The notes below the pieces were generated by a model that ran no database searches, had not been told where the DNA came from, and saw only the letters and a program-made list of their open reading frames with translations. A stretch of DNA of 64,000 nt, taken from Leptospirales bacterium. GTDB taxonomy: Bacteria > Spirochaetota > Leptospiria > Leptospirales > Leptonemataceae. Made by a program: the position numbers and the translations under genes. Below are positions 53,305 through 57,906 of this stretch, one piece after another (the stretch's first letter is position 1; every line of letters starts with the position of its first letter). The stretch is from NCBI GenBank assembly GCA_019694655.1, contig JAIBBN010000005.1, positions 62,001-126,000 on the forward strand, written 5' to 3'.

Positions 53305-53919
53305 TTACTCGGGCAAACTCCGGGCGCGCTCATCCATCATCAAGGTCGTGATCATCGCCGCGCGTTCTTTGGGCAAGAGCGTGAGCAGGTAGGGAACAAG
53401 CGAGGTGCGGCCGGCATCGGCGGCGCTGCGCTCCATTTCCAGGAAAACATCCACCAGATCCGTATTGCTCCAACCGGCGACAATTGCAACGGCCTGCGGC
53501 GGCGGCATATTGCCCATGCGATCGGCCATCTGTGCGATCATTCGCTTGCGGTCCTGTTGCGCGACAGCATCCTCTTGAAGCGCCTTCTGCTGCGCTTCCA
53601 CGCCGCGCACGCGCTCCTGCAGCTCTTGCTGCTTGCGGTCCAGTTCGGCCTGCTTCTCCTGGAGGGCCAGACGCTCTTCCTCCAGTTTAATACGCTCCTC
53701 TTCGATGCGCGCCCGTTCCTTATCCAGCTGCTGGCGATCGAGCTCAGATACGCTATCCTCTTCGAAGGAAACTTGATCCGCCGTTTCGCTCATCCCGGGC
53801 AGGTATTCCTCCAGGTTGATGATTCCCCAGGTATCCAGCAGATAAGCGAAGACGCCCATCGAGAAGAGGATCACCGCCGTCAGGTATACGATCTTAACTT
53901 TGTCGGACAGTCCGCCCAT
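53305..53919 (-). CDS. flbB: Periplasmic flagellar collar protein FlbB
   Basis: This 204-residue protein has one N-terminal membrane helix (VKIVYLTAVILFSMGVFAYL), a long charged coiled coil (about 60-125, EERIKLEEERLALQEKQAEL) and a small C-terminal domain of MgtE-N type (MPPPQAVAIVAGWSNTDLVD). FlbB is a spirochaete-specific part of the collar around the periplasmic flagellar motor, needed for stator assembly. It is the last of the fliI-fliJ-unknown-flbB run. No stator gene (motA/motB) is in the window. Confidence 0.92.
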   Translation of the reverse strand: MGGLSDKVKIVYLTAVILFSMGVFAYLLDTWGIINLEEYLPGMSETADQVSFEEDSVSELDRQQLDKERARIEEERIKLEEERLALQEKQAELDRKQQELQERVRGVEAQQKALQEDAVAQQDRKRMIAQMADRMGNMPPPQAVAIVAGWSNTDLVDVFLEMERSAADAGRTSLVPYLLTLLPKERAAMITTLMMDERARSLPE

Positions 53920-53948: not shown

Positions 53949-54305
53949 TCAGGCCCGCCGATCAAACTCCGTCGAACGCTCGCGCCACTTTTCGGCGATC
54001 TTTTCCAGCGAGCTGATGCGCTGATTCAAATCGTCGATCACATCGCCCATTTCCTTAAGGTCATTACGCGCTCTCCCGAGCGCATCGATGCCGGCCGCGC
54101 CGCGCCGCAGAGCGCCGGGTTCGGCGCTGAAGGCTGGCTGATCATGCGCCGGGGCGGTCGAGGCCTCGCTGGCGAAGATACTCTTGAACGTAGTCTCGGG
54201 GCGGCTGGGGTTGTTCTGGTTCGACGAGGTCTTTGGGATCAATCCCTTCGCCCAGCGGCTCAGGCGCTGCCGCAGGTTTTGGTTTTCTCCTGATTCTACT
54301 TTCAT
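53949..54305 (-). CDS. Flagellar-operon protein of unknown function, overlapping fliJ
   Basis: This 118-residue protein starts at an ATG with GGAGGACGGAA just upstream. Its N-terminal 54 codons overlap the 3' end of fliJ in another frame by 164 bases. The C-terminal half is a coiled coil (GDVIDDLNQRISSLEKIAEK). It lies between fliJ and flbB, so a flagellar role is likely but not shown. The strong ribosome site argues that the overlap is real rather than a wrong start, but a start inside the non-overlapping part cannot be excluded. Confidence 0.62.
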   Translation of the reverse strand: MKVESGENQNLRQRLSRWAKGLIPKTSSNQNNPSRPETTFKSIFASEASTAPAHDQPAFSAEPGALRRGAAGIDALGRARNDLKEMGDVIDDLNQRISSLEKIAEKWRERSTEFDRRA

Positions 54306-54762
54306 TTCCGTCCTCCGCAATCAGCGGGCTTCTGTTGCGCAATCGATTCGCTTCATCCAGTTCCCGTTTTTCCATCCGGCGCAAGTCCTGCTTGTACTGG
54401 GCATACTGTCGTTCTTTGAGCAGCTCGACAATGCGACGCTGCTTGCGCGCCTCCATGACCTTCTGCATTTCGGCCTCCAATTCCGGCCGAATTTCATCCA
54501 GTTTTCGCACAGCGACGCGCTCTTCGTTTTCCAGACGTTCAATGTAACGGTCATAGATCTTGAACAAATCAATATCAAAGCGTTCCTGGTATTCGCCTTC
54601 GAAGCGGTCCATTTCTTCGCGGACCAGGCGAGCGGCCTGGTCGCGCGCCGATTGCTGTACGTTGACGCGCAGCATGACCCGCGCCAGTTGACCGAGCGCT
54701 TCCTCTTCCTTGCGGCGGCGCACTCGGAGCAGACCCTCCAGCGGAAATCGAAAACGCTTAAT
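54142..54762 (-). CDS. fliJ: Flagellar export protein FliJ with ATT start
   Basis: This 206-residue protein has the FliJ pattern: KRFRFPLEGLLRVRRRKEEE at the very start and the conserved ELLKERQYAQY and RRMEKRELDEANRL near residue 130-150. Most FliJ proteins have about 150 residues; here the last 55 (Pro/Arg-rich, ending LRQRGLDRPGA) overlap the next gene. The frame contains no ATG, GTG or TTG near this N-terminus. The codon at the right place is ATT at 54762-54760, exactly eight bases after AGGAGGAGGA. FliJ is the central stalk of the flagellar export ATPase with FliI. Confidence 0.85.
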   Translation of the reverse strand: MKRFRFPLEGLLRVRRRKEEEALGQLARVMLRVNVQQSARDQAARLVREEMDRFEGEYQERFDIDLFKIYDRYIERLENEERVAVRKLDEIRPELEAEMQKVMEARKQRRIVELLKERQYAQYKQDLRRMEKRELDEANRLRNRSPLIAEDGNESRIRRKPKPAAAPEPLGEGIDPKDLVEPEQPQPPRDYVQEYLRQRGLDRPGA

Positions 54763-56113
54763 AGAAGTTGTCCTCCTCCTGCGCCGTGACCAGGTCGCGC
54801 AAGCGGGCCACGGTCTGATCCATATGCGAGGATTCCTGAATTGCCTGACGTAAGAAGGCCTGAATGCGCGGCATCTTCTCGATGGCCGCATCGACATCGG
54901 CATTGGAGCCGCGGGCGTAGGCCCCAAGGTTGATCAGTTCTTCATTTTCTTTGTGGGCAGCCAGCAAAGTGCGCAAGCGCGTAGCCCAGCCCAGATGATC
55001 GGGCGCGATTACTTTATCCATGACCCGCGAGATTGATTCGGTAATTTCGATCGAGGGATAGTGACCGCGCTGTGCAAGGCGACGGGTCAGGGCAATGTGT
55101 CCATCCAGAATACCGCGCGCATTGTCGGCGACCGGTTCGGTCATGTCGTCGGCTTCGACCAGCACTGTATAGAATCCGGTAATGCTCCCTTTCTCGCTGG
55201 CCCCGGCGCGCTCCACCAGGCGGCTCAGTCGGTACCAAACGCCGGGCGGATAGCCGCCCGGACCCAGCTGATCGCCGGCGGCAATACCGACCTCGCGCAA
55301 GGCCATACAGTAGCGCGTCAGACTGTCCATGTACAGATTAACCTGCAGGCCCTGGTCGCGGAAGAATTCGGCGGTTGAAGCGGCAAAGCCGGCGGCATAG
55401 ACCTTTTCCATGGCGGCGCGATCGCTGGTGGCGACAAATACGACCGATCGCTTCAGGCCGTCATCGCCCAGGTCGTTCTCCAGGAATTCCTTCACCTCGC
55501 GACCGCGTTCTCCCACCAGACAGATCACATTGATATCAGCGCGAGTGTAGCGAGCAATCATGCCCAGCAGCGTCGACTTGCCCACGCCGGTGCCGGCAAA
55601 AATGCCAATGCGCTGTCCGGCGCCGATGGTCAGCATTCCATCAATGGCGCGGATGCCGGTCTCCACCGGGCGGCGAATCATCTCCCGTGAAATCGGCGGC
55701 GGCGGATCTTGATCGGCATCGCGCTCTTCTTTGGAAAGCAGCGGCGAGCGCGTATCGAGCGGGCGACCGAGGCCGTCAAAGACCCGTCCCAGCATTCTGT
55801 CCGATACCTGAACCATCAAGCGTCGGCCGGTGGCCAGGACGTGGGCGCGCGGCGCAATGCCCGCAGGCGATCCAAGGGGCATCAGCACCAGCTGGTGGTT
55901 GCGAAAGCCAACTACCTCGCAACTCAAGTAGCGGCCCTTTTCAGCGGTTTCCACGCGGCAGATGTCGCCAATGCTGACCTCTGGCGGGCCATCGGAGATA
56001 ATAGACAGGCCGGTCACCTGCGCGACGCGCCCCATGGGGCGCAGGGGGTCCATGCCCTCCAGCAGGTTCTGGTACTTATCCAGCAAATCGAGGGGTTTGT
56101 CCAGACTGGCCAT
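54758..56113 (-). CDS. fliI: Flagellum-specific ATP synthase FliI
   Basis: This 451-residue F1-like ATPase has Walker A (FAGTGVGKSTLLGMIARYT), the Walker B region and the family block LVGERGREVKEFLENDL. It energises flagellar type III export together with FliH and FliJ on the cytoplasmic face of the motor. In many spirochaetes fliI follows fliG and fliH; here it is the first gene of its run, and a PTS enzyme I gene diverges from it, so those partners lie elsewhere. ATG 56113 opens the protein as in relatives. Confidence 0.97.
   Translation of the reverse strand: MASLDKPLDLLDKYQNLLEGMDPLRPMGRVAQVTGLSIISDGPPEVSIGDICRVETAEKGRYLSCEVVGFRNHQLVLMPLGSPAGIAPRAHVLATGRRLMVQVSDRMLGRVFDGLGRPLDTRSPLLSKEERDADQDPPPPISREMIRRPVETGIRAIDGMLTIGAGQRIGIFAGTGVGKSTLLGMIARYTRADINVICLVGERGREVKEFLENDLGDDGLKRSVVFVATSDRAAMEKVYAAGFAASTAEFFRDQGLQVNLYMDSLTRYCMALREVGIAAGDQLGPGGYPPGVWYRLSRLVERAGASEKGSITGFYTVLVEADDMTEPVADNARGILDGHIALTRRLAQRGHYPSIEITESISRVMDKVIAPDHLGWATRLRTLLAAHKENEELINLGAYARGSNADVDAAIEKMPRIQAFLRQAIQESSHMDQTVARLRDLVTAQEEDNFY
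54771..54780 (-). promoter_or_regulatory. Strong Shine-Dalgarno before the ATT start of fliJ
   Basis: AGGAGGAGGA inside the end of fliI lies eight bases before the ATT codon of fliJ. The T of the ATT overlaps the first base of the fliI stop (TAA), a coupling typical of flagellar operons. It is an ideal match to the 16S anti-Shine-Dalgarno. Confidence 0.7.
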
Positions 56114-56208
56114 TATGTCGCCTGTCAGTTAAGCTCATTTTGGCCCATCGTACAAGCCTTTTTCGAAACTCAGTTGCCTGCCCTGGCGCACTGCGGCGAC
56201 CCTTCGCC

Positions 56209-57906
56209 ATGCCCGGAGCGGTCGAAATTGTCCTGCGCGGCGCCCAGGCCTCGGGCGGCATCGCTCGCGGAGCGCTCTACCCGCTGCACGACCCCTTGCT
56301 GAGCCTGCCGCACCAGAGCATTGATCGCGATGCGGTGGAAGCGGAAATTGAACGGCTGCATCTGGCCATGCGCCAGAGCCGCAGCCAGCTGGAAGCGATC
56401 CTGGCGCACACCCGCATCAGCCCCGAACTCCAGGCCATCTTCGAAGCACAGGCCCTGATGTTTGAAGATCCAATGTTGATCAGCGCCACCGAGGACCGCA
56501 TCCGCAGCCGGGCGATCAACGCCGAGTGGGCGCTGGCCGTTGAAATTGAAAACATCAAGGGCTTCCTCGAGAAAAGTAACAACGAAATCATTCGCGAGCG
56601 CTCCGCGGACGTCAACGACGCCGGGCTGCGACTGCTGGGCAATTTGATGGGCGTCCCGGGGGGCGACTTGCGTCTGGCGGCCTTGCAGCAGATGCCGGCC
56701 GGCGCCGTAGTTGCGGCTCACGAAGTCAGCCCGGCAATGATGCTGGAGCTGCGCAATTGTGCAGCGATTGTGACCGAGGGCGGCGGCGTTGCAGGGCACA
56801 TGGCCATTCTGGCGCGCAGCCGCGGTCTACCAGCGCTGGTCAATGTCGAGGGTTTGATGGACCAGTGCAGCGCCGGTTGGGACGCCCTGGTCGATGGCGA
56901 GCGCGGCGAGCTGGTCATCCATCCCGGCGAACAACGCCTGACGGAGTGGCGAGCCTTCCAGGCGCGGCAGGTCCGTCGAGCGCAAGAGCATGTCCAGTCG
57001 CCGGTGCAAACGCAGGATGGCGAGTCGATTCGATTATTCTTGAATTTGAGCGATGATCAGGAGACGGATGCCAGCCTTGGCGGCGCCAGCGGCGTTGGTT
57101 TGTTTCGCACCGAATTCCTTTACCTGGGCGACTCTTCCTTGCTGCACGAAGACGAACGTCAAACGGAACGCTACCGGGACCTGCTACAGCGACTGAGCGG
57201 CGGACCGGTTACGCTGCGCTTGATGGATGTCAGCGAAGATAAGCGCTTCCCGCTCTATACCGATGAACGCGATTTGCGCGGCGTTCGTTTCTTACTGGCC
57301 AATCGCGAACTGCTCCTGCGGCAATTGCGTTCCATACTGGAAGCGGCGGCGGTCGTGGGCCGCGCCGATGGCAGCGTGCGCATCATGGCGCCGCTGGTAG
57401 CGCGCGTTGACGAAATGCAGGCGGTGCGCGAGGCGCTGCAGGAAGCGCAGCAAAGTTTGCAAAAGCGGGGCATTGAAGCGCCGCGCATCGAACTGGGCAT
57501 GATGCTGGAAACGCCGGCGGCGGCCTTGATGGCCGATGTCTTTTCAGAGGTGAGCGATTTTTTCAGCATTGGCTCCAATGATCTGGGCCGCTACACCATG
57601 GCCCTGGCTCGCGAGCAGGCTACAGACCTTGAGCTCTTCTATCAGCCGGCGGTATTCCGAATGATTCACGAGGCGCTGCGCCGCGCAACAAAACCGGTCT
57701 CGCTTTGCGGCGAACTGGCTGCGCGCCGCGGCGCGCGCGAGATCCTGCTGGGTCTTGGACTGCGCGATCTGAGCGTGGCGCCTGCCTCGCTGCGCGATCT
57801 TTGCGCCGGCGTACGCGACGTCTCGCTACGCTACTGCAAGAGCCTGGCCGAGCAGGCGCTGGCGGCGCGCGACGCTGCCGAACTCTGCGAGCACCTCGGT
57901 CTGTGA
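56209..57906 (+). CDS. ptsI: Phosphoenolpyruvate-protein phosphotransferase (PTS enzyme I)
   Basis: This 565-residue protein has an N-terminal swivelling domain with His197 in TEGGGVAGHMAILARSRG, the equivalent of E. coli His189, and a PEP-binding barrel with Cys500 in PVSLCGELA. The middle motif differs: DIGGDK is DVSEDK and the following NPFLGWRAIR is RDLRGVRFLL. It may act in a regulatory PTS, since no HPr or sugar permease lies nearby. The ATG at 56209 gives the family start; the earlier TTG at 56140 is upstream of it. The stop overlaps the next gene (GTGA). Confidence 0.9.
   Translation: MPGAVEIVLRGAQASGGIARGALYPLHDPLLSLPHQSIDRDAVEAEIERLHLAMRQSRSQLEAILAHTRISPELQAIFEAQALMFEDPMLISATEDRIRSRAINAEWALAVEIENIKGFLEKSNNEIIRERSADVNDAGLRLLGNLMGVPGGDLRLAALQQMPAGAVVAAHEVSPAMMLELRNCAAIVTEGGGVAGHMAILARSRGLPALVNVEGLMDQCSAGWDALVDGERGELVIHPGEQRLTEWRAFQARQVRRAQEHVQSPVQTQDGESIRLFLNLSDDQETDASLGGASGVGLFRTEFLYLGDSSLLHEDERQTERYRDLLQRLSGGPVTLRLMDVSEDKRFPLYTDERDLRGVRFLLANRELLLRQLRSILEAAAVVGRADGSVRIMAPLVARVDEMQAVREALQEAQQSLQKRGIEAPRIELGMMLETPAAALMADVFSEVSDFFSIGSNDLGRYTMALAREQATDLELFYQPAVFRMIHEALRRATKPVSLCGELAARRGAREILLGLGLRDLSVAPASLRDLCAGVRDVSLRYCKSLAEQALAARDAAELCEHLGL

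Follow-up and report, generated by a model that had tools for sequence, protein, structure and literature searches.

At which codon does translation of fliJ begin when its reading frame has no ATG, GTG or TTG near the conserved N-terminus? The question arises in the window, a 64,000-nt stretch from the draft genome of a Leptospirales bacterium (G000; 3.9 Mb in 33 contigs), where direct reading of the sequence places both fliI and fliJ on the minus strand, a detail absent from the first-pass annotation, with the junction sequence GCGCAGGAGGAGGACAACTTCTATTAAGCGTTTTCGATTTCC. A first-pass annotation had proposed that fliJ starts at an in-frame ATT eight bases after AGGAGGAGGA and overlapping the fliI stop codon, an arrangement that the window sequence bears out. 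The junction and its surroundings comprise the following features.

54758 to 56113, minus strand: fliI, flagellar export ATPase, 451 amino acids, C-terminus EEDNFY.
54771 to 54780, minus strand: putative Shine-Dalgarno sequence AGGAGGAGGA in the fliI tail, with an 8-nt spacer to ATT.
54760 to 54762, minus strand (read 54762 to 54760): putative fliJ start codon ATT, seen in the sequence and kept in 13 genomes of 8 genera.
54758 to 54762, minus strand: ATTAA, the 5-nt overlap of the fliJ start and the fliI stop (TAA at 54760-54758).
54142 to 54762, minus strand: fliJ, 206 codons from ATT, stop included; PF02050.
54721 to 54723, minus strand: GTG, fliJ codon 14, preceded at about 10 nt by GGAGGG; the first canonical in-frame codon downstream.
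53305 to 53919, minus strand: flbB, periplasmic flagellar collar protein, downstream on the same strand (NF047368, 154 bits, cut-off 110).

The fliJ frame directly follows fliI in the operon and lies in the +1 frame relative to it: fliI ends GAG GAG GAC AAC TTC TAT TAA, and fliJ begins ATT AAG CGT TTT CGA TTT CCG CTG GAG, for a translation of I-KRFRFPLEGLLRVRRR (206 amino acids). Its product matches the FliJ profile PF02050 at 33.1 bits, above the cut-off of 28.4, and scores 43.4 against TIGR02473, below the cut-off of 50.45 (E 4e-11); the identification as FliJ rests on the PF02050 match, the position after fliI and the relatives. The duplex of AGGAGGAGGA with the anti-Shine-Dalgarno sequence was computed at -12.1 kcal/mol, a value that assumes the standard anti-Shine-Dalgarno because no 16S gene was found in the draft genome. 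The fliJ frame is open for 57 codons upstream within fliI, where the nearest ATG is codon -43, and between this codon and codon 14 there is no ATG, GTG or TTG, as the first-pass annotation had said of the region around the N-terminus. At the other end of fliI, the start lies about 27 nt from a divergent, PtsI-like long frame on the plus strand (56140-57906; intervening region 56113-56140), so the promoter of fliI-fliJ-flbB must lie in or beyond the start of that gene. Between fliJ and flbB, a frame at 53949-54320 overlaps the 3' end of fliJ by up to about 180 nt when taken from its first listed start, and a family search with this frame gave no match.

We compared the upstream regions of fliJ, as the first-pass annotation had recommended, across 22 genomes from 13 genera of the window's family, most of them uncultured. 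We located fliJ in 21 of the 22. An ATT overlapping the fliI stop was present in 13 genomes representing 8 of the 13 genera (g1, g2, g4, g5, g6, g9, g11 and g13), with the overlap reading ATTAA in 12 genomes and ATTAG in one (L011). Among these genera, FliI is 65-74% identical to that of the window where fliI is complete and FliJ roughly 36-52%, indicating that the ATT junction survived much divergence. The remaining genera have other starts: one (L003) has TTG in a -4 overlap, TATTGA; two (L008, L015) have ATG in a -1 overlap, TACTGATG; and g3 and g10 (L031) have ATG after a gap. Stop and start thus stay in contact in three of the five non-ATT genera (L003, L008, L015), so the contact outlives the codon. 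Among the genomes sampled outside the family, fliJ starts are mostly ATG, with some TTG or GTG. The FliI tree requires five changes to account for ATT, and both a single gain with several losses and several gains fit; in this tree L003, with its TTG and a weaker AGAGGAA, adjoins L002. On this comparative evidence, the -5 overlap of fliI and fliJ is a conserved pair and not an annotation slip.

The same comparison bears on whether ATT is the start at all. The window alone is one draft assembly of 33 contigs, as would suit an error of sequencing or assembly at 54760-54762; the recurrence of ATT in 13 genomes that were assembled separately and come from diverged species rules this out, and we regard the chance of such an error as negligible. 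A FliJ that begins at an ordinary codon, upstream within fliI or downstream, has candidates: the ATG at -43 and the GTG at codon 14 behind GGAGGG in the window, an ATG at -8 in L009, L010 and L014, and a GTG at -7 in L002. These positions vary by genome, however, and the ATG at -8, carried by sister species of the genus, is missing from L012 of that same genus, where ATC alone stands between the upstream stop and ATT. Four genera have an in-frame stop close upstream of ATT, at 7 codons in L004, 4 in L011, 8 in L013 and 1 in L021, where TGA is the second codon before ATT. No ATG, GTG or TTG falls in between, which leaves ATT as the one plausible start from which the conserved N-terminus would be retained. 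Where the stop is 8-9 codons away (L005, L006, L012), only ATC, CTG or ATA intervene. Downstream canonical codons are scattered over positions 8 to 28, and using them deletes K-x-F-x-F-x-L-E; the GTG at codon 14, which is not kept in relatives, would delete the block KRFRFPLE. The K-x-F-x-F-x-L-E block in codons 2-15 is near-constant in its residues and varies in its third bases (F as TTT or TTC, K as AAG or AAA, R15 as CGC, CGT, CGA or AGA), which argues that it is translated; it is under protein-level constraint and is kept in ATG-start relatives. In L011, with its TAG stop, two codons are inserted after ATT, yet ATT is unchanged, as is the distance that separates it from GGAGGA. The first-pass annotation had held that any other start would remove the FRFPLE block, which is right for downstream starts and wrong for codon -43, which would lengthen the protein. 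The mark of a non-canonical start is that a gene and its orthologues have no usable ATG, GTG or TTG, and this is what we found; an ordinary start is very unlikely. More improbable still is +1 frameshifting at TAT-TAA to give a FliI-FliJ fusion. A Shine-Dalgarno-like sequence lies just before the stop, where it could act as a stimulator as in prfB, and fliJ is in the +1 frame. Against this, tRNA-Tyr (anticodon GTA) re-pairs poorly with AUU after slipping, the distance from the Shine-Dalgarno-like sequence to the slip site varies, and in L003, L008 and L015 fliJ is in another frame with a TTG or ATG start, so that a fused product is not conserved. Collectively, these comparisons strongly support ATT as a genuine, conserved fliJ start.

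The bases around ATT bear signs of selection. The motif GGAGGA precedes the start in all eight ATT genera (in every ATT genome) and in none of the five non-ATT genera (Fisher p = 0.0008), and genus means of Shine-Dalgarno energy run from -9.5 to -12.1 kcal/mol in the former versus -0.5 to -6.1 kcal/mol in the latter (p = 0.0016), both p-values being optimistic because genera share ancestry and are not independent. GGAGGA is built from GAG, even though fliI and fliJ prefer GAA for Glu. In all ATT genomes the terminal Tyr of FliI is encoded by TAT and never by TAC, a codon with which the start would read ACT in place of ATT. The share of TAT among the Tyr codons of fliI and fliJ is 26-68%, and the chance product over the eight ATT genera is 0.0035. 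By comparison, TAC is the terminal Tyr codon in both genera that have ATG in a -1 overlap. The conserved acidic tail and terminal Tyr of FliI (EE..FY/LY; window 54758-54790) occur in much of the family (L001-L015), whatever the fliJ start. This EE-Y tail is found also in the ATG-start relatives L008, L015, L025 and L097, the last two outside the family, so part of TATTAA is inherited.

What the first-pass annotation missed is the main point of the junction: a 5-nt overlap permits no canonical start codon. The start must end on the base with which the stop begins, a T, and only ATT is therefore allowed. A survey of overlapping genes found -5 overlaps seemingly ruled out and outnumbered more than 1,000-fold by -4 overlaps, and noted that ATT could serve -5 overlaps with all three stops, at an efficiency of about 0.3% of ATG (Huber et al. 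2023, PMC10666635, citing Hecht 2017 for the efficiency). In another survey (Sabath et al. 2008, PMC2542354), short phase-1 overlaps numbered 18 out of 71,210 overlapping pairs. A referee of that paper raised the question of their function, conservation or regulatory role, and the authors granted the possibility of errors in annotation or sequencing. The surveyed pairs (PMC10666635, PMC2542354) share the register ATTAA/ATTAG, with ATT named as a possible solution, but for them annotation error was suspected, whereas the fliI-fliJ junction is kept in eight genera and is accompanied by Shine-Dalgarno compensation. The coupled -4 (NTGA) and -1 (TGATG) overlaps, found in three of the non-ATT genera, likewise bring stop and start into contact and fit termination-reinitiation, but they use ATG, GTG or TTG where the fliI-fliJ -5 overlap uses ATT.

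This geometry suggests how ATT could persist. Codon 1 is locked, as it shares its T with the stop and cannot become ATG, GTG or TTG; codon -1 always ends in T, and codon 2 begins with the last two bases of the stop. With these bases shared, any substitution in codon -1, 1 or 2 that gave NTG would cost fliI its stop or its terminal Tyr. Escape from ATT would require an insertion or deletion, and selection would have strengthened the Shine-Dalgarno sequence instead. TATTGA with its TTG and TGATG with its ATG have the look of junctions that escaped in this way. Judged from the geometry of the sequence, lock-in with Shine-Dalgarno compensation probably explains the persistence of ATT, and we favor this trap with compensation over an adaptive ATT.

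We also asked how specific the arrangement is within the genome. A search of the whole 3.9 Mb gave only two occurrences of GGAGG-N4..10-ATTAA, the second at no recognizable gene junction. A survey of the -5 register, which sampled about a third of the genome by regions (1.26 Mb, 991 predicted genes), returned nine pairs with ATT; in the eight others a canonical start lies no more than 7 codons away, and fliJ is the only such junction in the sample without one nearby. Genome-wide use of ATT starts was not seen in the 1.26 Mb sampled. An unusual initiator tRNA was ruled out among the tRNA loci examined, all of which are ordinary (three Met-type with CAT and one Ile with GAT are among them, some lower-scoring hits having been left out). 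A scan of viral contigs gave no match, and a text search found no published account of a fliJ with an ATT start. Elsewhere in the genome, at C2:277118 (plus strand; within L177), a 186-codon frame starts with CTG 7 nt after GGAGGAGG, and the scan chose no ATG, GTG or TTG start there. This frame has a signal-peptide-like N-terminus, LRRLASATLFLLLLGAGLG, and 9 codons upstream of it lies an in-frame stop; its CTG overlaps the stop of an upstream 457-codon frame as CTGA (-4). It is possibly another non-canonical coupled start.

How might an AUU be used at this junction? The fliI-fliJ pair has the stop/start overlap by which translationally coupled pairs are recognized. A ribosome at the end of fliI would terminate at TAA, which ATT overlaps. 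The strong GGAGGA anchor, itself part of the fliI tail, would keep the small subunit in place, AUU being at or close to the P site, and the initiator tRNA would pair with it there. Initiation would be mainly by termination-reinitiation at AUU, with some direct initiation, and FliJ would begin Met-KRFRFPLEGLLR. Re-initiation at fliJ is inferred from the junction sequence and is consistent with work in which a Shine-Dalgarno sequence raised re-initiation (PMC2268962). We consider it likely that fliJ is initiated at ATT by re-initiation coupled to fliI, with lock-in by the overlap keeping ATT in place. The poor start codon would hold FliJ below FliI, as would suit a ring of six FliI and one FliJ. 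The FliI6-FliJ1 complex has one FliJ, which forms the central stalk of its ring (PMC9114704), so a lower output from fliJ than from fliI would be harmless and might help. Lower FliJ output in the coupled operon is plausible and fits this stoichiometry. That ATTAA is a ratio-setting re-initiation site, its poor codon selected to bring FliJ toward 1:6 and to make export responsive to the balance of initiation factors, is an idea that we put forward tentatively.

The first-pass annotation had suggested that FliJ levels might depend on IF3. More broadly, ATT may have been selected as a regulatory start, IF3-responsive in the manner of infC or sigR, or setting the FliI:FliJ ratio. AUU is the start codon of infC in E. 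coli, where it forms a feedback loop with the gene's own product, IF3, and also of pcnB. Both infC and fliJ would use AUU, but infC is self-regulating and fliJ has no known link to IF3. Moreover, infC starts with ATG or TTG, never with the ATT or ATC of E. coli and Streptomyces, in every one of the 20 family genomes that yielded the gene (loci L044-L063), which argues that AUU autoregulation of IF3 of the E. coli type is absent from the family; as read from these starts, the IF3 interpretation loses its main analogy, the infC feedback. Among conserved odd starts that go with a strong ribosome-binding site in a coupled pair, the closest proven case is sigR of Streptomyces. It combines an extended conserved ribosome-binding site, AGGAGGTG, with GTC in 32 of 34 species, is repressed by IF3, and belongs to a coupled pair whose products must keep a ratio (PMC5472188). 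The resemblance has limits: in the Streptomyces pair it is the upstream gene, sigR, that has the odd start, no overlap dictates it, and IF3 control is proven (PMC5472188), whereas here the odd start belongs to the downstream gene, fliJ, and shares bases with the stop, and IF3 control is hypothetical. Overproduction of IF3 does lower re-initiation in a reporter, and it was suggested that IF3 inhibits re-initiation mainly where a Shine-Dalgarno sequence is missing (PMC2268962). The retention of ATT with a strong Shine-Dalgarno sequence across eight genera would suit a regulatory start, but five genera of the family manage without ATT, and overlap geometry accounts for its persistence without any regulatory benefit. 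We therefore regard selection of ATT for regulation as unlikely and retain coupled re-initiation with overlap lock-in as the preferred reading.

Overlap geometry is the new part of this finding. Two surveys had judged the -5 overlap incompatible with canonical starts, and the few cases were laid to annotation error or rare ATT; for one such case, fliI-fliJ answers "conserved" to a referee's question left unanswered in 2008. Gene callers limited to ATG, GTG and TTG would misplace the fliJ start in these genomes. Within the family, the occurrence of ATT, TTG and ATG at one junction, with matching Shine-Dalgarno strengths, provides natural variants with which its function and regulation may be tested.
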